NCBI GenBank assembly: GCA_018818835.1
Contig: JAHIRD010000027.1
Location: forward strand, 1-64,000
DNA: 64,000 nucleotides
Source of the DNA: Pseudomonadota bacterium
Lineage (GTDB): Bacteria > Desulfobacterota > Desulfobacteria > Desulfobacterales > Desulfolunaceae
Reading direction: 5' to 3'
The position numbers and the translations under genes are program-made. A model generated the notes under the pieces. The model worked only from the letters and a program-made list of their open reading frames with translations. It was not told where the DNA came from and did not search any database. Shown in pieces: positions 20,319-63,706 of the stretch. How positions within the stretch are numbered: the first letter of the stretch is position 1; each line of letters opens with the position of its first letter.

Positions 20319-23300
20319 TCAGGTTGTTTTAGTATGCAGAATCTCAACAATCGGGATTTCCCATGATTCAACCTTTAGATTGAAGCTCTCATTTACGTGA
20401 CCGTCATTCTGCCCCCTTTTTACCATACCCAGGACCTTTGCATTGACAATGGCCTGGGTTTTGTTTTTCCATGTTTCCGTGGCTTTTTTTGAAAGGGTTG
20501 CAAGGCTCTGCCCCAAGGTGTTGACGATATGAATTCGGTTTTCCTGTTCGATTAAACGGACCTTGTCCCCTGTTTTCAGGGCGGCCAGATTTATGTGAAG
20601 TTTATGCGTTTCAGGATAAAAACCGGCATAGGAAATATACAGATCTTCCATTCCGAGAATACTTACGGTCAGGTCTTCGGAAAAACCTTGGAGTTCTGAC
20701 ACGGCGGCGGTTGTTTCATGGGTGGCGGGATGCCCCGTGAGTGCCTGGATATGGGGATTTGCCCTGCCGTCGAGTCGGCACAGATAAAGGGCTTTTTCTG
20801 CCCGTGTCATGCCCACGTAGAACAAACGCCGCTCTTCTTCCATGTCTTGATGATGCCAGCCGCCATCCAGAATAAAGACATAGGGAAATTCCATGCCTTT
20901 GACACTGTGAACGGTTCCCATGAACACACCGGTGCCTGTTTTGTGCTCCCGTTTGTCTTCAAGTAAGGTTTCCAGAACAAAATCTTTGGTCCGTGACAGG
21001 GAAATTTCCATATCCGGCGTGAGCTTACACCATGCCGTGAGAATCTGCTCCACCTGGTTGGTCCAGGTATTTTTAGACTCAAAACGGTCCAGGATGTCCT
21101 TTTTCAATTGTTCGGGGTGTATGCTTTGTTTTTTATTTTCTGTCAGATAATCTATCAGGGCCTGGATTTCCCTGATTTTGATTATGGGAAAACCCACGCT
21201 GTTTTTGATGGAATAGCAGAATTCCATGCCCTCTTTGGCCAAGGCCATGCGAAGGGCGACCAGATAGGGATGGGCAATGCCCTGGCGGGATATCACCGCA
21301 AAATCACCGGGGCAGGCTTCCGGGTTGTTCTGAAGGATTCCTTTGATCGTATCTGCTACAAACACGGCCTGGGAGGCCACATCTCGGACATGGACAATCT
21401 GAACAGGCTCGGCCTTTGAATTTTGATCGGATTTGCGTTTCCGGTTGATGCGGCCGGGTTTGTCTGTTTTCATACGATCTTTGTTCAAGGCGATCAGGGC
21501 ATTGGCCGCTTCAATGATGGGGTATGACGATCTGTAATTTTCAACCAGGTAAAAGGATTCGGCCTCATAATCGTTCTGGAATTGCTTGATAAAGGCCACA
21601 TTGGCATGTCGAAATCCGTAGATGCTCTGGTCATCGTCCCCCACGGCCATGATGGCGATGCGGGAATCCCTGTCTTTCTCAAGCCTGCCGGTCAGGGCTG
21701 AGATGAATGAGTATTGCCGGGCGTCGATGTCCTGGTATTCATCCACAAGAATGTAACGGTATTGGGCCAGAAGCGTGTCCCTGGCTTCCTGGGCATCAAG
21801 ACCTTCGATTTCTTTGGCCCCGGCTAAGATATCAACGGCTTCGTCAATGACCGTATCAAAATTAAACTCGGACAAGCCTGTTTTTTCAATGAGGGACCGG
21901 CCGGTGATCCGCATGGCAAATCCATGATAGGTCATGGCCGTGACAAAATCCGCGCTCCGGCCCACCAGTGCCTTGATCCTCTTTCTAAGCTCGATCATGG
22001 CCTGGTGGTTGAAGCATAAGACAAGGATGGATGCGGGGTCCACGGATTTGGCTTTGATCAGCCAGGCGCAACGATGAACGATGGTTCGTGTTTTTCCCGA
22101 ACCGGGGCCGGCCAGGACCAGGATGTTTTTTTCGGGAGGGGCCGCCACAATGGTTTCCTGGATGGTATTTTCCAAACTCTGGATAATTCGCTTATAGGCA
22201 TCGGAGGTCATGGCGGTTTCGATGATTTTTTTCTGATCCTGAAAATAGTGATGGACAAATCCCTCATAGGACGATGTGAAATAGTCGCTGACAAAGGAAA
22301 GGGCGGATTTGATTTTTTCAAGACCCAGGTGGGCGTATTTCTCCATCACATGAACCTGGACATTTTTCTGGGCATAATGATGGGACAAGGGCTCGTAATC
22401 GCCTTTGGTGTACTGCCGAGTTTGACTTTCGGGAAGCACGGATAGCGTCAGAGCCTGGCGGAACACGCCCAGCCCGTTTTGAAGGGTGATGATTTTTAAG
22501 TCGTGCAGGTAAAGCAGGCACTGTTCGACCAGTGAGGTTGTATCCCCTGTGTATGCAGAAAGAAACAGGTCCAACTGCATGGCCTTGATGATATCGGACA
22601 TGAAAAATTCAGTCATGACCTGGGCCTGGCCATGTCTCAGGTGGGGTGGCAGACAGGCGATGATGGCTTCAACACAGATCCGGGAACCATTGTGCCGAAG
22701 AGTCATCCGCTTTTTGATGTCATCCCAGGGAAATTTGACATAAACCCGGTGTTGTTCAAGGCCTTGTTTCCCTGAAATTTTTAAACTTTTCCCCTGATTT
22801 TCCCCCTTGTCCTGGGCCATGGCCCGAATGATTTTTTCCACACTGTCGACATTGACCTGCTCAAAACCCTGGTCTTTCAATCGCTGGGACATAAGCCTGA
22901 GATTGATGACGTCTGGTATATCCGGGCTCATCCACGCATCGGGTGCCATGTCCTGCATGATCCGGAGCATGGCTTCCTCCACGTTGGAGAAAAAATCAAG
23001 TTGGGATGGGGCGCTTCCTTTTCCCTTGGGTTTGACAAAGGCGGTCATGACCGTGCCTTCCCGGATCAAACCGGCTTCGGCCATCTGGGATAAGAGCCTT
23101 ATCACATACCGGGAGTCGAGATAATCCGACGGCAGCTTATCAATGCGTCCCAGGGCTGTGCAGATGTCATCGGCGGACAGAAGCTTGTCTTTATCGGCAT
23201 TGAACAAGGTGCTGAGCACGGTCAGATAAACAGCTTTCATTATTTTTGAAAGATTAAGGGCCTCTATTTTCTGTTCAGCTTCGGCCATATCCCGGACACG

Positions 23301-25499
23301 GGGCGTTCCTTTGAAAAAAAGGGTCTGATTATAAGACCGCTCAATAAATCCCTTTCGTTCAAGCCAGCTGACACCGATCCGTGCCCGGTTGTCATCGTTT
23401 GAACTGTCTTTGTAACCGATCAGGCGCATGATCTCACCGGGGGTGATCACGATGTCCGGAGCATTGGCTCCCCGTTTTTTCAAAATGCTTAGAATTTTTC
23501 GGATGTCTTTAAACGAGAGGCGGGAATAGGCATTCAGTGAAAACTGGTTTTCAATGTCTTCCTGCTCATACAAAAGGATGCAGTCCGAGGGATTTAAATC
23601 CCGTCCGGCACGTCCGGCCTCCTGCAGATAATTTTCCAGGGAACCGGGCGTATCGGCATGAATCACCAGGCGGATGTCTTTTTTATCAATGCCCATGCCA
23701 AAGGCATTGGTGGCGCAGATCACGGGGATATTTCCGGCAACAAAATCATCCTGGATATTGCGTTTGTCCGGTTCGCTCCGGCCTGCATGGAACGCCTTTG
23801 AGGGGATGCCTTTTTCATTTAAAAATTCGCTGATCATTTCCGTGTTTTTTTGTGTGGCACAATACACGATGGCACCACTTGCTGGCTCCGTGAGATACTC
23901 TTGAATGCAGTTGGCAATCACATCATATTTTTCGTTTTTTGTCACAGGCCAGACCTGGAAATGAAGATTGTCCCGCTGGACACCCCCTTCGAAACGGACC
24001 AGATTCAAGCCAAGGTGTTCATTGAAATGGCTGGAAATTTCTTCGATCACATCTTTTTTGGCTGTGGCTGTGAATGCCCCCACCAGGGGGAAGGTTTTGG
24101 ATGCTTTAACGTAGTTTGAAATGAATTCGGTCACATGGAGGTAATCCGGCCTGAAATCGTGGCCCCACTTGGACAGGCAATGGGCCTCGTCAAAGACCCA
24201 GCAACCCACATCCCGTGTCTTGATCAACTCGGCTATGCTGATATTGCGAAGCTGCTCCGGAGAAATATACAAAAGGCCGATATCCCCAAGCCGGACCTTG
24301 TCCATGACCGCCCCCCGCTCGGGCAGGGTCAGGCTGCCGTTGATGGCGGCTGAGGATTCCATTCCGGTTGAGCTGTTCAAATTATCCACCTGGTCTTTCA
24401 TCAGGGCTTTCAAGGGCGAGATCACCACGGTCAGATCTCCCAGACGGTGATAGCGGTGAAGGGCCGGAATCTGGTAACAGATGGATTTCCCGCCGCCTGT
24501 GGGCAGGATGCCGAGCAGGGATTTTCCTGCAAGGTTGGCTTCGATGATCTCTTTTTGGAGCACCCGGCCATCGGATAAGGCCCTGTAATGTTCAAACCCG
24601 AAAAATTGCTTGAGTAAGGCTTCAGAATCATGATTTGTAAGGCAGTAAGCACAGGAATCGTTTCCACAGGCATACCTGAGTGTTCGAACCCATGAGGCTA
24701 TTTCGTTGAATTCATGCTTGACCCAGGGCGGGATGATGGAGTTGCCGCCCGAGACCCTGATCCAGGACAGGATATAGGCCAGCATGGGCCGTTTGGACGG
24801 GTGGCTGCAACAGGCATTCCATACCGTTTCAAGCCCTGTATCGCAGACTTTTCCACGACAGATCTCACGGAACCTGAATTTTGCCGCAGCCTCATCTGGA
24901 GCAGGTCCGGATAAACAATGAAACACCTGGGATAGTCCTGTGATGTTCGACAACTCAAATGCAAAATTGTACACGGAAAGAAGGCCGGGTTCCCTGGCGT
25001 TTAAGTCAACAAAGGCGGCCAGCTGGTCATCAAAAACAGCTCGGGCAAGGCGGGCATCGGCCACGGGATCGTTTTTGCTGTGTTTGACCAGCTTATAATC
25101 CTTGACCAGTTTGTGATAGGGATTTTCCGGAAAGGCCAGGGGGGATAAAAACAAGGTATCGATAACCGGAAGCTTTAAAAAACCGGCTTCAGGATGGATG
25201 TCCCTGGCCACGGCAAGGTCATGGTTCACAATGTTGTGCCCCAGAATAAAATCTGCATCCCGTGCAAATTCCGAAAGCCAGTTGAACGCCGTTTTTAAAT
25301 GCTTGATATCTTTTTTCTCAAAGACCCTGCCATCCAAAACCGCCCCAATATGATACAGCTCACCACGGGGAACGGTTTCAAAGTCAATGACAAGAATATG
25401 CTTGAACCTGTCTTTGACCTGATCCAACAGATCTTTGTGGGCATATTTGTGGGGTATATTTATGGGCATATGTTCCGTTGGGTTCACCACAGAGATCAC
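20319..25499 (-). CDS. DEDD exonuclease-RecQ-UvrD fusion helicase
   Basis: 1726 residues in one frame. Order: N-terminal DEDD-type 3'-5' exonuclease (about 30-180; acidic VIDFETV, GHNIVNHD and NDPVADARLA), a small cysteine cluster (CGNDSCAYC, about 278), RecQ helicase (Walker A LPTGGGKS about 340, DEAH at about 440, motif VI YLQEAGRAGRD about 630), a winged-helix/RQC-like middle, then a complete UvrD-type SF1 helicase (Walker A AGPGSGKT about 1131, VDEYQD about 1251, DDDQSIYGFR, NYRS, TVHSVKGMEF, YVGMTRAEKALYL about 1560). One polypeptide thus carries opposite-polarity helicase engines plus a nuclease. Role inferred: recombination, repair or defence against foreign DNA. Upstream lie a ParDE pair and a Pif1-like helicase in the same orientation. 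Confidence 0.88.
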   Translation of the reverse strand: MISVVNPTEHMPINIPHKYAHKDLLDQVKDRFKHILVIDFETVPRGELYHIGAVLDGRVFEKKDIKHLKTAFNWLSEFARDADFILGHNIVNHDLAVARDIHPEAGFLKLPVIDTLFLSPLAFPENPYHKLVKDYKLVKHSKNDPVADARLARAVFDDQLAAFVDLNAREPGLLSVYNFAFELSNITGLSQVFHCLSGPAPDEAAAKFRFREICRGKVCDTGLETVWNACCSHPSKRPMLAYILSWIRVSGGNSIIPPWVKHEFNEIASWVRTLRYACGNDSCAYCLTNHDSEALLKQFFGFEHYRALSDGRVLQKEIIEANLAGKSLLGILPTGGGKSICYQIPALHRYHRLGDLTVVISPLKALMKDQVDNLNSSTGMESSAAINGSLTLPERGAVMDKVRLGDIGLLYISPEQLRNISIAELIKTRDVGCWVFDEAHCLSKWGHDFRPDYLHVTEFISNYVKASKTFPLVGAFTATAKKDVIEEISSHFNEHLGLNLVRFEGGVQRDNLHFQVWPVTKNEKYDVIANCIQEYLTEPASGAIVYCATQKNTEMISEFLNEKGIPSKAFHAGRSEPDKRNIQDDFVAGNIPVICATNAFGMGIDKKDIRLVIHADTPGSLENYLQEAGRAGRDLNPSDCILLYEQEDIENQFSLNAYSRLSFKDIRKILSILKKRGANAPDIVITPGEIMRLIGYKDSSNDDNRARIGVSWLERKGFIERSYNQTLFFKGTPRVRDMAEAEQKIEALNLSKIMKAVYLTVLSTLFNADKDKLLSADDICTALGRIDKLPSDYLDSRYVIRLLSQMAEAGLIREGTVMTAFVKPKGKGSAPSQLDFFSNVEEAMLRIMQDMAPDAWMSPDIPDVINLRLMSQRLKDQGFEQVNVDSVEKIIRAMAQDKGENQGKSLKISGKQGLEQHRVYVKFPWDDIKKRMTLRHNGSRICVEAIIACLPPHLRHGQAQVMTEFFMSDIIKAMQLDLFLSAYTGDTTSLVEQCLLYLHDLKIITLQNGLGVFRQALTLSVLPESQTRQYTKGDYEPLSHHYAQKNVQVHVMEKYAHLGLEKIKSALSFVSDYFTSSYEGFVHHYFQDQKKIIETAMTSDAYKRIIQSLENTIQETIVAAPPEKNILVLAGPGSGKTRTIVHRCAWLIKAKSVDPASILVLCFNHQAMIELRKRIKALVGRSADFVTAMTYHGFAMRITGRSLIEKTGLSEFNFDTVIDEAVDILAGAKEIEGLDAQEARDTLLAQYRYILVDEYQDIDARQYSFISALTGRLEKDRDSRIAIMAVGDDDQSIYGFRHANVAFIKQFQNDYEAESFYLVENYRSSYPIIEAANALIALNKDRMKTDKPGRINRKRKSDQNSKAEPVQIVHVRDVASQAVFVADTIKGILQNNPEACPGDFAVISRQGIAHPYLVALRMALAKEGMEFCYSIKNSVGFPIIKIREIQALIDYLTENKKQSIHPEQLKKDILDRFESKNTWTNQVEQILTAWCKLTPDMEISLSRTKDFVLETLLEDKREHKTGTGVFMGTVHSVKGMEFPYVFILDGGWHHQDMEEERRLFYVGMTRAEKALYLCRLDGRANPHIQALTGHPATHETTAAVSELQGFSEDLTVSILGMEDLYISYAGFYPETHKLHINLAALKTGDKVRLIEQENRIHIVNTLGQSLATLSKKATETWKNKTQAIVNAKVLGMVKRGQNDGHVNESFNLKVESWEIPIVEILHTKTT

Positions 25500-26364: not shown

Positions 26365-28896
26365 TTATTCATTTTTTAAAGCCACATGCCTCACGTGAGC
26401 CTTCATCATATGGATATCACCGTAGGACACATCGTCGCCAAGTTCAGCTTTTATGGCTTTAAGGGATCCAGGCCCTTGGGTTGTTTTTGCGAGTTTTTCT
26501 TCAATGGCACGCTGCTTTTCAGGTGAAAGGAGTTTGTTGATATCCAGCCCGCCGTTTTTGATAAAATGGCAGAGATGACTATGGACAGTGGATTCCGCAA
26601 GGCCACGCTCTTTGGCGATGGCGTCCATGGTCATGCCTTTTTCAAACAGATCAAAGCTGATTTGTTTGGAGTCTGGGGTGGGGCCTGGTTTTTCCGTGTG
26701 GTCTTTGTCCGGGGCCTTGATTTTGGGTTCCGGCAGTAGTACTTGCTCAATGCCTTTTTTCGATCGATAGGCCACAACACGGGTAAGGATATCTTCCCCG
26801 TATGATTCCATGGTTTTTTTCCCCATTCCCTTGATTTTTTTTAAGGCTTCGGGTGTATCCGGCAGGCAGACAGCGATTTGAATCAAGACCCGCTGATGAA
26901 GGATTTGAAATGCAGCCACGCTTTTTTCCTTTGCCTTATGGGTGCGCCATTCTTTAAGCTCTTGAAACAATATGGGGTTTTCAATGTCCGATTCGGTGTA
27001 TTCCGGTGCCTGGGCTTTTTTTGCTTTGGATGGCAGCTCGTCCATATCCGATGTTGCCCGTGCGATTCGTCTCAGATAGCGGGAGGGCGAAAAATTCTGT
27101 TCACAGGACTGGACGGCCGCATGCTTGACCGCAATTTCCTGTTTCAGATTGCCCAGGGCACGGCTGATGGTTTTGCTTAGATCGGTGTTGTCCGTGTCCA
27201 CCGCCATGTGATTCACAAAATCGTCAAACACCTGGTCCATTTTTTCCTGGAACCACTGGGATGCTTTGCATACACGTTCCTGGATATAGTCATCCGATTC
27301 CGGCAGGCTGGTTTTGGGGAAATGGTAGGACAGTTGGTTTTTAAATTTTGCACTGACACTGAAGATATCCTGTGCGGCTCTGTCCAGAAGGAGATTCATA
27401 TCTGAGACGCCCGAAACCTTTATCAGGTGAGCGTTTCCGCTAAGAATCCTGGCAAGGGCGTTTAGCCGGTGGTTCAGGGTCTGAAAATCAAAACATTCCA
27501 GCAGCAACTGCTGCTGATAGCCTTGTTTGGCGGCCGTGAGCTGATCTTCCGTGGGGGGGTTGCTTCGCACCTCGTCAATAAATGTGGAAACAGCCAAATC
27601 AGTGTCGATGCCCCGTTCCGGAACAGGGGAGCTGAGCACCATGCCTTCCAGGGTTTTGCAGCGGCTTAGGGCCACATACACCTGGCCGTGGGCAAAGGCG
27701 GCTCTGGCATCGATCACGGCGTTATCAAAGGTCAGGCCCTGGCTTTTGTGAATGGTGATGGCCCAGGCCAGTTTCAAGGGGAACTGCTTGAATGTGCCGA
27801 TGATCTCTTCGACAATGTCCTTGGTTTCTTCATTAACCGTGTAGGTGATATTTTCCCAGACAAGGGGTTCCACCTCAATGTCGTCGATGTCATCCGGGCA
27901 ATGGACCCTTATTTTATCGGGTGATATGGCGGTGACCCGGCCGATTTTGCCGTTGAAATAGCGTTTCTCAAAGGAGCTGTCATTCCTTAAAAACATGACC
28001 TGGGCATTTATTTTCAAGGTCAGTGTCTCAAGGGTCGGAAAGGTCTGCGGGGGAAACTCCCCTTCAACCTCAGCTTGAAGGTGATGTTCTTCCCCTTTAA
28101 GAAGATCAAGCCGACTTTGATTGATGGTATCGGCATTTCGGTTATGGGTGGTCAGGGTGATGAATCCCTGTCCTTCTGTGGGAGTAAAGTTTTCCACATA
28201 CCGAAGGTTCAACTCTTCGATATGGGTGTTCTCCAGCCGGTTGTCGCGGACCCGGTTGAGCAGCCGGATAAATCGTTCATCGGACTGGCGGTAAATCTTT
28301 TGCAGCTCAATGGTATAAAGAGGCAGCCCGGAAAGACCCTGACTGCTGAAAAAATAAACCGAGTCATAATATTGGCGAAGCAGTTCCCATTCATCCTGCT
28401 TGGCCACAGGCGAGAGCTGATAAAGATCCCCGATCATCAACAGTTGGACTCCCCCAAAGGGCAGGGTGTTGCGCCTATGATAACGAAGAACCTCATCCAC
28501 GGCGTCCAGGACATCTGCCCTTACCATGCTGATTTCATCAATGACCAGAAGGTCCAGGTTTTTGATGATCTGTTTCTTTTTCTTACTGAACCGGAACAGG
28601 TTGTCCCGATTCGATGCATAGGCCCCCCCACCGGGAATAAACGGGCCAAAAGGCAGTTGGAAAAACGAATGCAGTGTCACCCCTCCGGCATTGATGGCTG
28701 CCACACCGGTGGGTGCCGTTACGATCATCCGTTTGGCGGTATTTTTTTTCAGGGTTTTTAAAAACGTGGTTTTTCCGGTCCCGGCTTTCCCGGTCAAAAA
28801 CACATGGTGGCCCGTATGTTCAACAAATTCCCTGGCCAGATCAAGGTGAGGGTTTTCAGAATGAGGTGTATCCGTTTGCTTATTCATAGTTATCAT
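26365..28896 (-). CDS. Pif1-like SF1 helicase with HRDC and HTH_40-type domains
   Basis: 843 residues. N-terminal SF1B helicase of the Pif1/RecD-like clade (Walker A FLTGKAGTGKTTFL about 40, VTAPTGVAAINAGG, VIDEISMVRAD, late motif AWAITIHKSQGLTFDNAVID, VALSRCKTLEGM). Residues about 675-735 are an HRDC-type domain (PEALKKIKGMGKKTMESYG), and residues about 755-835 a helix-turn-helix module (DLFEKGMTMDAIAKERGLAESTVHSHL). This chain is common in Bacteroidetes-like genomes and usually annotated only as an HTH-containing ATPase. A second in-frame ATG lies 9 bases downstream of the chosen start. A function in fork, R-loop or foreign-DNA processing is inferred. Confidence 0.88.
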   Translation of the reverse strand: MITMNKQTDTPHSENPHLDLAREFVEHTGHHVFLTGKAGTGKTTFLKTLKKNTAKRMIVTAPTGVAAINAGGVTLHSFFQLPFGPFIPGGGAYASNRDNLFRFSKKKKQIIKNLDLLVIDEISMVRADVLDAVDEVLRYHRRNTLPFGGVQLLMIGDLYQLSPVAKQDEWELLRQYYDSVYFFSSQGLSGLPLYTIELQKIYRQSDERFIRLLNRVRDNRLENTHIEELNLRYVENFTPTEGQGFITLTTHNRNADTINQSRLDLLKGEEHHLQAEVEGEFPPQTFPTLETLTLKINAQVMFLRNDSSFEKRYFNGKIGRVTAISPDKIRVHCPDDIDDIEVEPLVWENITYTVNEETKDIVEEIIGTFKQFPLKLAWAITIHKSQGLTFDNAVIDARAAFAHGQVYVALSRCKTLEGMVLSSPVPERGIDTDLAVSTFIDEVRSNPPTEDQLTAAKQGYQQQLLLECFDFQTLNHRLNALARILSGNAHLIKVSGVSDMNLLLDRAAQDIFSVSAKFKNQLSYHFPKTSLPESDDYIQERVCKASQWFQEKMDQVFDDFVNHMAVDTDNTDLSKTISRALGNLKQEIAVKHAAVQSCEQNFSPSRYLRRIARATSDMDELPSKAKKAQAPEYTESDIENPILFQELKEWRTHKAKEKSVAAFQILHQRVLIQIAVCLPDTPEALKKIKGMGKKTMESYGEDILTRVVAYRSKKGIEQVLLPEPKIKAPDKDHTEKPGPTPDSKQISFDLFEKGMTMDAIAKERGLAESTVHSHLCHFIKNGGLDINKLLSPEKQRAIEEKLAKTTQGPGSLKAIKAELGDDVSYGDIHMMKAHVRHVALKNE

Positions 28897-57093: not shown

Positions 57094-57381
57094 ATGGTCA
57101 TCGGCATCGCACGCATCCAATTCAGAATCCATGACTGCCATTCGCTGAAAGGCAAGCGGAAGATCGTCAAATCCATGATCACCCGGCTTCAGAACGCCTA
57201 TAATGCGTCTGTGGCGGAAGTGGCCTTCAATGATGTGCATCAGAAAGCGGAAATTGGTGTGGCCATGGTGGGGAACGACCAGAAGCGGATCAATTCACAA
57301 ATGGATAAATTATTGGATCTGGCCGAAGACATGGGGCTTGCGGAAATGCTCAACGCCGATATTGAATTCATCCATGTTTGA
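57094..57381 (+). CDS. DUF503 family protein
   Basis: 95 residues from ATG 57094, which matches the family start (MVIGIARIQFRIHDCHSLKGKRK); a longer frame from 57067 lacks a ribosome site. Small ferredoxin-like fold with conserved SLKGKR and FNDVHQKAEIGVAMVGND. Its family is conserved in many bacteria, often near rbfA; function not established. The TGA stop overlaps the first bases of a family B repeat. Confidence 0.85.
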   Translation: MVIGIARIQFRIHDCHSLKGKRKIVKSMITRLQNAYNASVAEVAFNDVHQKAEIGVAMVGNDQKRINSQMDKLLDLAEDMGLAEMLNADIEFIHV

Positions 57382-57441
57382 TGGCGTCGTAAAAAGTTAC
57401 ATATGCATCGTTATAGTGTTTGGCCGGACGTTCGACATACG
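57380..57441. repeat. Family B repeat, half copy at the DUF503 stop codon
   Basis: Starts GATGGCGTCGTAAAAAGTTA and continues to GGCCGGACGTTCGACATACG. Only the left end of the 92-base element is present. Confidence 0.72.
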
Positions 57442-57446
57442 TTTGT

Positions 57447-59878: not shown

Positions 59879-62800
59879 ATGAAATTCATTGCGGATCTCC
59901 ATATCCATTCAAAATATTCCCGGGCCACCGCTAAAAATCTGGATCTCGAACATCTCTATGTGGAAGCCAGAAAAAAGGGTATCACCGTGATCGGAACCGG
60001 AGACAGCACCCACCCGGGATGGTTTTCTGAACTCAAAGAAAAACTGACCCAAGCCGAGGACGGGCTTCTCCGGCTGAGGCCCGACATCGAAAATGCCTGC
60101 AATGCCCTGGTGCCAGGCTCCTGCACAGGCCAGGTCCGATTTATGCTGGAATCCGAAATCAGTTCCATTTACAAGAAAAACGATAAAACCCGTAAAAACC
60201 ATAATCTGGTGTTTTTCCCTGATTTTGACAGCGCAGAACGGTTCAATATCAAACTGGATGCCATCGGCAACATCCGATCCGACGGACGGCCCATTCTGGG
60301 CCTGGATGCCCGGAATCTCCTTGAAATTCTTCTTGAAACCCATGACCAGGCCTTTATGATTCCCGCCCACATCTGGACGCCCTGGTTTTCCCTGCTGGGA
60401 TCCAAATCGGGCTTTGACACCCTTGAGGAATGCTTTGGCGACCTGACCCCCGAAATATTTGCCGTGGAAACAGGCCTGTCCTCGGACCCACCCATGAACT
60501 GGCGGATCTCGTTCCTTGACAATCTGACCCTGGTGTCCAATTCCGATGCCCATTCCCCGTCCAAACTGGGTCGGGAAGCCAATATGTTCTCTACGGACCT
60601 GTCCTATCACCACATCAGAAAAGCCCTTAAGACAGGTGATCCAAACCAGTTTCTCGGGACCCTGGAATTTTTCCCCGAAGAGGGAAAATACCACCATGAC
60701 GGCCATCGAAAATGCCTGGTCAGTATGGAGCCCGAGGAATCGGTCCGAAAAAAAGGCATCTGCCCCGTATGCGGTAAGCCCATGACCCTGGGCGTCAATT
60801 ACCGGGTTCTGGAACTTGCAGACCGAAAGGAAGGACAAAAGCCCACCAACCACCACCCCTTTCACAGCATCATCCCCCTTAACGAAGTTCTTGGGGAAAT
60901 CATGGGATGCGGAACCCAGACCAAAGGGGTCAGAATAAAGTTGCAACATGCCGTGGAGACCCTGGGACCCGAGCTTGAAATTTTACAGAATATCTCCATT
61001 TCGGATATCAAGGAGGCTGGTATCCCCCTTCTGGGTGAGGCCATTGAGAGAATCAGAAACAATTGCCTGAACATTCAGCCGGGTTATGACGGGGAATTTG
61101 GCAAGATCAAAATTTTCACCGAGGATGAAAAAGAAGAACTCATGGGCCAGAAAATGCTCTTTTCCTTTCTTGAGCCCCAAAAGGACCCGGCCTATTTTAA
61201 AGCCGGCAGCCGCAAACAAAAGGGTGTGGTCCCGAAATCCCAGGTTCCTGACGACCCGGATAACGACGCATCACGGAATGCCTTAAATCCTCTTCAGGAA
61301 AACGTGGTGAACCATCAGGGGTCACACTTGATGGTCATAGCCGGGCCCGGAACCGGAAAAACCCACACCCTGATCCGAAAAATCGGCCGACTGATCACAG
61401 ATAAAAACATCCCCCCGGAACAGATTCTGGCCATCACCTTTACGGTCAAAGCGGCCCGGGAAATGAAAGAGAGGCTTCTTGGCCTCATCAAGGGACCCGG
61501 CCCCCTTCCCCTGGCCGCGACCTTCCATTCCCTGGGGCATACCCTGCTTTGCGAATGGTACGATTCTCCCTTTTCCATTGTCAATGAAGAGGGTCGTCTA
61601 AGACTGATGACAGATTGCCTGGCCCAGGAGTTCAGCGGCAAAGCCGGGATCCCCGCAAAAACGGCCCTTGACATGATCGAGAGAGCCAAACAGAACATCC
61701 TCGGGCCGGATTCGGACACCTACGACCTTTCTGCGTCCTTTTCCTGTGATCCCGAGATATTTCAAACCATATACCGGGCCTATGCTTCACGGCTCAAAAA
61801 GGAAAATCTCTGGGATTACGATGATCTTGTGTTTGAAACCGTGCGCCGCCTGGAATCGGACCCCGTTCTGTCAGATCAGTGCAGACAACGGTTTCCCTAT
61901 GTTTTTGTGGATGAGTATCAGGACCTGAACCACGGCCAGTACCGCCTGGTGCGTGCCCTTTGCCCCACGGAGGGCCAGATGACGGTGATCGGTGACCCGG
62001 ATCAATCCATATACGGCTTCCGGGGATCGGATTCAGCCTATTTCATGCGTTTTCAAGAGGATTATCCCGGAGCTGACCTAATCAGTCTGAACCGCAATTA
62101 CCGCTCCACCGAAACCATCTTAAACGGTGCCTTTCAGATGATTGAACAGGGACAGGCCCGGGAAGACATGCCCCGGACCCGGATCTGGTCCGGCCGGGAT
62201 GGTGTAAAAACCATTACGGTGTTGGAAAACCCCACGGAAAAAGCCGAAGGAACAGCCATCGGCAAATGCATCGAACACCTCATGGGTGGCGTGGGATTCC
62301 ATTCCATGGATTTTAGCAAAGAAGACCTGCTTGCTGACCTGGATCTTGGATTTTCAGATTTTGCCATATTGACCCGCACCGGAGCCCAGGGCCAGATCAT
62401 TGCAGATGCCCTGGGAAAAGGGGGAATTCCCTGTCAGTATGTTAGCCGGGACAGTTTCTGGGGTATTCCGGCCCTCACGGACCTTTTGGCCTGCCTGAAA
62501 ATCCTCCACAACATAAACTGCCCGGACCATGAGATACGCGGCCTTGAGCCGGTTCATCCCGGTGGGAGCCAAGCCATCCATGCCCTTATCCACAGCCAGG
62601 AAACCCTGAAGGCCCTTGGCCTGAAAGACCAACTCCAGGCCTTGACGACCCTTATCCCCGGCCTTGCACACGGTTTTGCCCCGGAAAAACACCAGAATTT
62701 TTTTGAGCACCTGTTGAGCATGGCCGCCCCCTTTGGTACCGATGTGGGCGATTTTCTAAAAACCCTCAGTCTTTGCAGTGATCAGGATCTGTACGATTGG

Positions 62801-63145
62801 AATGCCGAAAAAGTCTCCATAATGACCATGCATGCCTCCAAGGGCCTGGAGTTCAAGGTGGTCTTCATCGCCGGGTGTGAGAACGGCTTGATCCCCTTCA
62901 AGACTATGGGGAGAACCCCCACGGATCCCGAGGAAGAGCGGCGGCTTTTTTACGTGGCCATGACCCGGGCCAGGGACCTTCTGTACCTGTCCTTTTCCAA
63001 AAACAGAACCCATTTTGGCAAGCCCCAAAACACCGAACTGTCACCCTTTGTCCGGGACATGGATCGACGGCTTTTGCGTTTTGAGGTTCCGTCCTTCAGT
63101 CGTCTGGATCAATCGAAAAAACCGGTTCAACTGTCCTTGTTCTGA
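59879..63145 (+). CDS. Endonuclease Q-UvrD helicase fusion
   Basis: 1088 residues. The first about 400 residues match Endonuclease Q (TIGR00375): PHP-type metal motif DLHIHSKYSRATAKN, GTGDSTHPGW, IPAHIWTPWFSLLGSKSGFD, LECFGDLTP-like segment, SNSDAHSPSKLGREANMF, and a zinc site HRKC plus CPVCGKPMTLGV followed by ELADRKEG. EndoQ nicks DNA 5' of uracil, hypoxanthine and other deaminated bases. Residues about 470-1065 form a full UvrD/PcrA helicase: Walker A AGPGTGKTHT (about 485), VDEYQDLN, GDPDQSIYGFRG, NYRST, TMHASKGLEFKVVF and YVAMTRARDLLYLS. Thus nicking and strand unwinding are joined in one chain. The WbuC-like gene follows after 35 bases. Confidence 0.9.
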   Translation: MKFIADLHIHSKYSRATAKNLDLEHLYVEARKKGITVIGTGDSTHPGWFSELKEKLTQAEDGLLRLRPDIENACNALVPGSCTGQVRFMLESEISSIYKKNDKTRKNHNLVFFPDFDSAERFNIKLDAIGNIRSDGRPILGLDARNLLEILLETHDQAFMIPAHIWTPWFSLLGSKSGFDTLEECFGDLTPEIFAVETGLSSDPPMNWRISFLDNLTLVSNSDAHSPSKLGREANMFSTDLSYHHIRKALKTGDPNQFLGTLEFFPEEGKYHHDGHRKCLVSMEPEESVRKKGICPVCGKPMTLGVNYRVLELADRKEGQKPTNHHPFHSIIPLNEVLGEIMGCGTQTKGVRIKLQHAVETLGPELEILQNISISDIKEAGIPLLGEAIERIRNNCLNIQPGYDGEFGKIKIFTEDEKEELMGQKMLFSFLEPQKDPAYFKAGSRKQKGVVPKSQVPDDPDNDASRNALNPLQENVVNHQGSHLMVIAGPGTGKTHTLIRKIGRLITDKNIPPEQILAITFTVKAAREMKERLLGLIKGPGPLPLAATFHSLGHTLLCEWYDSPFSIVNEEGRLRLMTDCLAQEFSGKAGIPAKTALDMIERAKQNILGPDSDTYDLSASFSCDPEIFQTIYRAYASRLKKENLWDYDDLVFETVRRLESDPVLSDQCRQRFPYVFVDEYQDLNHGQYRLVRALCPTEGQMTVIGDPDQSIYGFRGSDSAYFMRFQEDYPGADLISLNRNYRSTETILNGAFQMIEQGQAREDMPRTRIWSGRDGVKTITVLENPTEKAEGTAIGKCIEHLMGGVGFHSMDFSKEDLLADLDLGFSDFAILTRTGAQGQIIADALGKGGIPCQYVSRDSFWGIPALTDLLACLKILHNINCPDHEIRGLEPVHPGGSQAIHALIHSQETLKALGLKDQLQALTTLIPGLAHGFAPEKHQNFFEHLLSMAAPFGTDVGDFLKTLSLCSDQDLYDWNAEKVSIMTMHASKGLEFKVVFIAGCENGLIPFKTMGRTPTDPEEERRLFYVAMTRARDLLYLSFSKNRTHFGKPQNTELSPFVRDMDRRLLRFEVPSFSRLDQSKKPVQLSLF

Positions 63146-63180: not shown

Positions 63181-63657
63181 ATGAAAATCATCACACACAA
63201 GGACATGGCCGCCCTCAAGACCAAGGCCGGTGAAAGCAGCCGCAAACGGATGAATCTCAATGTTCACGAACAGGCATCGGACCCGATTCAACGGCTTTTT
63301 ATCGCTGCCGACCGCACATCGTATTTTCGTGCCCACCGCCATAACCACAGCTGGGAATTTGCCCTTGTTCTCCAGGGTCTTTTTGATGTGCTTGTGTTCG
63401 ATGACACGGGACAACTCACCGAGCGGATTTCCCTGGGACCCCAGGCCCGGGTTGCAGCCTTTGAAATCCCGGCAGGCACCTGGCACGCCTGGATTCCCCA
63501 TGAAGACGGGTCTGTGTTCTTTGAATGCAAACAAGGGCCCTACAATCCCGACACAGCCGCTGAATTTGCCCCCTGGTCCCCTGAAGAAGGTTCAAGCGAG
63601 GTCACCGACTTTGTGCAACGGCTTAAAACACTGGCTGTGGGGGACATGGCGTCGTAA
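63181..63657 (+). CDS. WbuC-like cupin metalloprotein
   Basis: 158 residues. Cupin with RTSYFRAHRHNHSWEFALVLQG (histidine metal ligands), FEIPAGTWHAWIPHEDGSVFFECKQGPY, typical of the WbuC group found near polysaccharide genes. The last codons (GDMAS) and the TAA stop are encoded within the family B repeat that begins at 63646, so the repeat has replaced the original end. AAAGGA precedes the ATG. Confidence 0.85.
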   Translation: MKIITHKDMAALKTKAGESSRKRMNLNVHEQASDPIQRLFIAADRTSYFRAHRHNHSWEFALVLQGLFDVLVFDDTGQLTERISLGPQARVAAFEIPAGTWHAWIPHEDGSVFFECKQGPYNPDTAAEFAPWSPEEGSSEVTDFVQRLKTLAVGDMAS

Positions 63658-63706
63658 AAAGTCCCATATGCGGCGTTATAGTGTTTCGCCGGACGTTCGA
63701 CATACG
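63646..63706. repeat. Family B repeat overlapping the WbuC stop codon
   Basis: ATGGCGTCGTAAAAAGTCCC to GGACGTTCGACATACG. It provides the TAA of the preceding gene. Confidence 0.75.

Follow-up and report, generated by a model that had tools for sequence, protein, structure and literature searches.

Endonuclease Q fused to a UvrD-type helicase: a probable bacterial repair enzyme with putative clamp-binding motifs

Organization of the fusion gene

The window, i.e., the whole 64,000-nucleotide stretch of DNA analysed here, carries an open reading frame (59879-63145, + strand) that runs uninterrupted from ATG to stop (1088 codons plus stop) and encodes a protein of 1088 residues. The N-terminal endonuclease Q (EndoQ) module (residues 1-415; 59879-61123, +), delimited by its match to PfuEndoQ and by structure alignment, consists of a PHP nuclease domain, a zinc-binding domain and a C-terminal domain. 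A linker predicted to be disordered (residues 424-463; 61148-61267, +; pLDDT <50) separates it from an SF1A helicase module (residues 464-1073; 61268-63097, +), defined by profile matches and by alignment with the structure 4c30. The gene is flanked upstream by a divergent gene for a GGDEF/PAS sensor protein and, 35 bp downstream, by a small cupin-like gene. No link to either neighbour was seen, and no promoter signal above that of shuffled sequences was found upstream of the fusion.

Residues 5-415 correspond to full-length PfuEndoQ (PDB 5zb8, E 4e-55 with the N-terminal half as query; also 7k30), and residues 467-1066 to PcrA/UvrD (4c2u, E 9e-77; PF00580, E 2e-65; PF13361, E 4e-39). TIGR00375, an NCBIfam profile of the hypothetical equivalog type, matches residues 5-410 over its whole length with 165 bits, about half of the curated cut-off of 326.6, which all standalone bacterial EndoQs scanned also miss (160-183 bits). 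The helicase scores 369 bits against the NCBIfam pcrA equivalog, below the 911 bits needed, a cut-off that PcrA-type proteins of the window's own phylum also fail to reach. From the 52 fusions aligned, an AlphaFold2 model was built in which both folds are full length; its mean pLDDT is 87.5, and the low-confidence parts are the linker and the tail (residues 1074-1088). Structure alignment of the EndoQ half with PfuEndoQ (5zb8) gave a Z score of 47.5 (388 residues, rmsd 2.5), and that of the helicase half with D. radiodurans UvrD (4c30) a Z score of 45.3 (578 residues, rmsd 2.7). The first-pass annotation had read the frame as an EndoQ fused to a complete UvrD/PcrA helicase and had proposed a domain search and a structure prediction; frame, profiles and model folds all agree with that reading.

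The EndoQ module is homologous over its whole length to the characterised enzymes of the family (PfuEndoQ, TkoEndoQ, MacEndoQ and B. pumilus EndoQ; COG1379/TIGR00375), with which it shares the fold, the active-site residues and the zinc domain. In contrast, those enzymes comprise about 400-430 residues and have no helicase. The second module features all SF1A motifs and the full UvrD fold, as do PcrA, UvrD and Rep, but is preceded by EndoQ. It also lacks the C-terminal stretch of about 80 profile positions present in most PcrAs, and ends in a clamp motif instead. A 2B-like helical region (residues 864-965; 62468-62773, +), recognised by a weak sequence-profile match and in the model, is probably shortened relative to UvrD/PcrA; the helicase spans 610 residues in the model versus 652 in D. 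radiodurans UvrD.

Conservation of the active sites

A full-length alignment of 52 fusions from several phyla (39-61% identity), which in itself speaks against a chance arrangement, was used to assess individual residues, all of which are encoded on the + strand. PHP motif I (D6-x-H8-x-H10; 59894-59908), equivalent to Pfu D6, H8 and H10, is invariant. Equally invariant are E93 (60155-60157), H108 (60200-60202) and H164 (60368-60370), aligned with Pfu E76, H84 and H139, which are zinc ligands whose alanine mutants are dead; H139 also contributes to the base pocket (reviewed in PMC8307549). The pocket sequence E197-T-G199-L-S201 (60467-60481), invariant as well, corresponds to Pfu E167, G169 and S171, of which G169 and S171 sterically exclude T and A (PMC8307549). 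In the SDAH motif (S222-H225; 60542-60553), S222, D223 and H225 are invariant, and A224 is the only one of the EndoQ PHP/metal residues to vary. The zinc site (H276-x2-C279 ... C295-x2-C298; 60704-60772, placed by alignment) reads HxxC...CxxC throughout the aligned fusions, compared with CxxC...CxxC in Pfu; the histidine that replaces the first cysteine is a plausible zinc ligand.

In the helicase module, the Walker A motif (AGPGTGKT, residues 488-495; 61340-61363) is nearly invariant, and K494 and T495 are strictly so. The same holds for D678, E679, Q681 and D682 of motif II (DEYQD, residues 678-682; 61910-61924), as well as for R742 (motif IV) and R1030 (motif VI). EndoQ PHP and zinc motifs in the N-terminal ~400 residues and all SF1 helicase motifs in the remainder had been annotated from the start; profiles and alignment confirm both assignments, with the qualification that the first zinc cysteine is a histidine. 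Because the catalytic residues of EndoQ and helicase are invariant in the 52 fusions, both halves look active.

Putative clamp-binding motifs

Two putative beta-clamp-binding motifs, as well as the breadth of the family and its two-gene relatives, had escaped the first-pass annotation. The consensus for such motifs is QL[S/D]LF, more generally QxxLF, and QLSLF forms the C-terminus of B. subtilis PolC (PMC12309361). In the window protein, the last five residues are QLSLF (Q1084-F1088; 63128-63142, +), an exact consensus in which Q1084 is invariant across the 52-sequence alignment. QLxLF-type ends were found in 64 of the 68 fusions with a closed C-terminus, and two of the four exceptions (L093 and L042) are shortened frames. 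None of 30 PcrA/UvrD-type control ORFs (L121-L150) has a C-terminal clamp motif, and the background among other ORFs of the same loci is 3 in 911.

Most fusions carry a second motif, GQxxLF, where EndoQ joins the helicase. In the window protein, this clamp-binding-like sequence is QKMLF (Q424-F428; 61148-61162, +), located at the site of the C-terminal motif in never-fused EndoQs; its strict form is kept in 45 of 74 fusions. As 20 of 30 never-fused EndoQs have QxxLF/QxLF-like tails, the junction motif, judging from its position, appears to be the ancestral EndoQ tail. Clamp-motif tails occur in only 4 of the 24 closed “alone” EndoQs nested within the fused clade, as expected if the tether went with the helicase. 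In archaeal EndoQ, a C-terminal PIP box binds PCNA, which stimulates the enzyme (PMC4858679), and beta-clamp motifs in bacterial EndoQs have been remarked earlier (PMC4858679, PMC3820547). The putative beta-clamp peptide at the end of EndoQ-UvrD fusions is a new observation; on the strength of its sequence, this tail should dock the protein on the replication clamp.

Distribution and genomic context

A single scan of GTDB genomes, run with patterns for close relatives, identified full-length fusions in Desulfobacterota, Myxococcota-labelled MAGs, Chloroflexota, Planctomycetota, Actinomycetota (Frankia, Pseudonocardiaceae), Acidobacteriota, Verrucomicrobiota, Bacteroidota and Balneolota. Overall, the architecture is present in at least 8 bacterial phyla and in 70+ relatives. 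A chimera or frameshift artefact is ruled out by these 70+ independent loci; their phyletic spread and the invariance of both active sites likewise argue that the fusion is genuine. Such fusion proteins are already present in public genomes, and no description of an EndoQ-UvrD fusion was found in the open-access literature searched.

In the window's own phylum (296 genomes), about 83 clear fusions are found among the matches listed, and at least 189 genomes carry some EndoQ by score, again among the matches listed. Alongside the fusion, a separate PcrA/UvrD-like helicase is retained in the genomes examined, and the fused motor is therefore probably dedicated. The idea that EndoQ replaces EndoV was examined at the genome level in the same 296 genomes, among the matches listed, tallied by hand and uncorrected for kinship: EndoV is present in 78 of 189 EndoQ-positive and in 51 of 101 EndoQ-negative genomes, a non-significant difference (p 0.14). 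Of the 83 genomes with a fused EndoQ, 27 have EndoV. In the host genome of the window, the UDG family is matched three times and EndoV not at all; since UDGs coexist with the fusion, the latter is not the sole uracil route.

The fusions have a chromosomal setting. Clustering of flanking ORFs in the sampled neighbourhoods revealed no recurrent partner genes beyond those shared by close relatives, and a location in defence islands was rejected on these grounds. A mobile or phage origin was similarly discarded. None of 50,697 phage records matched EndoQ, matches in the plasmid collection were confined to the helicase half and nowhere spanned 80% of the query, and no relative was found on viral contigs in a scan sensitive to close relatives only.

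Phylogeny of the two modules

In the EndoQ tree, a branch marked 96 separates 30 never-fused EndoQs from all 74 fusions, among which 25 “alone” sequences are interspersed. The tree implies 13-16 fused/alone changes; this is an upper estimate of helicase losses, because some “alone” entries are truncated contigs (e.g., L047) or broken frames (L097). All fused-type helicases, together with three nested unfused ones, lie on one side of a branch marked 97 in the helicase tree, forming a clade separate from ordinary PcrA/UvrD proteins, which occupy their own branch (marked 99).

Outside the fused branch, near PcrA, lie the helicases of the two-gene loci L156, L162 and L117 and the solo helicases L171/L172. 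In L156 and L162, EndoQ and helicase are encoded by neighbouring or overlapping genes on the same strand, and each protein carries a clamp motif; the helicases end in QLTLF and QMKLF, respectively. L117 resembles these loci, with in-frame stops between the halves. In both L097 (1489-4725) and L117 (193-3264), EndoQ and helicase are in frame and separated by only one or two stop codons, either a recent breakage or a two-gene state. The solo relative in L171 (75-7575, -) overlaps a gene that by eye is RecB/AddA-like, and an EndoV gene lies about 2 kb away.

These data are most simply read as a single ancient joining of two adjacent genes, followed by repeated loss of the helicase; this is not a proof, as the tree is unrooted and was built in quick mode. 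In several lineages nested among the fusions, EndoQ persists after loss of the helicase half, so some hosts can do without the latter.

Proposed mechanism and alternative explanations

EndoQs of Pfu, B. pumilus and M. acetivorans nick DNA 5' of deaminated bases and AP sites, and UvrD-type SF1A motors move 3'->5'. From its intact active site, we infer that the window EndoQ nicks in the same way; by analogy with its family, the fused helicase would unwind 3'->5'. We consider it likely that the fusion is a clamp-tethered, single-polypeptide enzyme of alternative excision repair, which nicks on the 5' side of uracil, hypoxanthine or AP sites and then unwinds the damaged strand to permit repair synthesis. 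In the order of steps that we infer, the protein would dock on the beta clamp via its C-terminal QLxLF, assisted in most members by the junction GQxxLF. The EndoQ module would flip out the damaged base or AP site and cut 5' to it, leaving a 3'-OH and a 5'-P. The motor, carried on a flexible linker of about 40 residues, would then load at the nick and track 3'->5' on the unbroken strand, displacing the damage-bearing strand in the same direction in which a clamp-bound polymerase would extend the 3'-OH. Filling by the polymerase, removal of the displaced strand by a flap or 5' nuclease and sealing by ligase would complete the repair, and the clamp at the nick would keep nickase, motor and polymerase together. 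The original suggestion that the helicase peels the strand from the nick calls for a qualification: to displace the damaged 5'-phosphate strand, a 3'->5' SF1A helicase has to run along the other, unbroken strand.

A bolder version of this scheme, in which the two motifs occupy both sites of the beta-clamp dimer and the nick is followed by strand-displacement synthesis independently of glycosylases in many phyla, is offered tentatively; if true, it would describe an excision pathway common to many bacterial phyla. After the 5' nick made by EndoQ, the damaged base sits at the 5' end of the downstream strand, and repair schemes have invoked either strand displacement with Fen1 or EndoV together with an unnamed helicase acting after the nick (PMC4357722). 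The fusions and the two-gene neighbours name a candidate for this missing partner, and a single protein makes the EndoQ pathway testable in vitro. We regard the fusion as a new form of EndoQ, not as a novel type of system; it also points to EndoQ being frequent among bacteria and not mainly an archaeal oddity.

A different use of the motor, replication-coupled surveillance in which helicase and clamp scan DNA for deaminated bases and the helicase serves the search rather than strand removal, seems unlikely. The clamp motifs fit this scenario, and surveillance has been suggested for E. coli Lhr, which combines a helicase with a uracil glycosylase and thus recognition of deaminated bases in one protein (PMC10953399). 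Lhr is a working analogy, with no homology claimed: it belongs to another helicase superfamily and its glycosylase is AlkZ-like, whereas the fusion carries an endonuclease. Against surveillance, nicking a single-stranded template ahead of the fork would break the fork, duplex DNA is an established substrate for EndoQ nicking, and a nick offers UvrD-type motors a natural loading site.

Of the two functions first envisaged, a deaminated-base repair machine is the better supported; an anti-foreign-DNA nuclease, aimed at phages whose DNA contains uracil or other modifications, is highly improbable. A part in defence has been proposed for bacterial EndoQ, according to a review (PMC8307549). Gabija and other defence systems also link a UvrD-like helicase to a nuclease, and PADLOC reported GajB matches on the helicase half. 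However, these matches are confined to the generic helicase, the Gabija partner nuclease GajA belongs to another family than EndoQ, the fusion lacks a defence context in the phage, plasmid, viral and neighbourhood data given above, and the clamp motifs indicate replication or repair. We give equally little credence to two modules working independently on one polypeptide, a view that fits the repeated loss of the helicase with retention of EndoQ but not the persistence of the fusion across at least 8 phyla, the invariant motifs in both halves or the two-gene forms, which also pair both functions. The fusion is real and widespread, and probably a dedicated repair enzyme.

Additional observations

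Directly 3' of the standalone EndoQ gene, Bacillota (Lachnospiraceae and relatives) carry a gene that by eye is endonuclease III-like (L082: 9230-9889, +; likewise L067, L072, L075, L080 and L084). Elsewhere in the window, a 1726-residue ORF (20319-25499, -) appears to combine in one frame a DnaQ-like exonuclease, a RecQ-type helicase and a UvrD helicase, the last identified by Pfam and the other two by eye. It adjoins a large ORF (26365-28896) that by eye encodes a Pif1-like helicase. A repeat of about 61-66 bp follows two gene ends in the window (57381-57446 and 63646-63706, +). About 40 near-full copies (91-100%) are present in the genome, several with an adjoining inverted partial copy, and the repeat resembles intergenic elements of the REP/BIME-like type.
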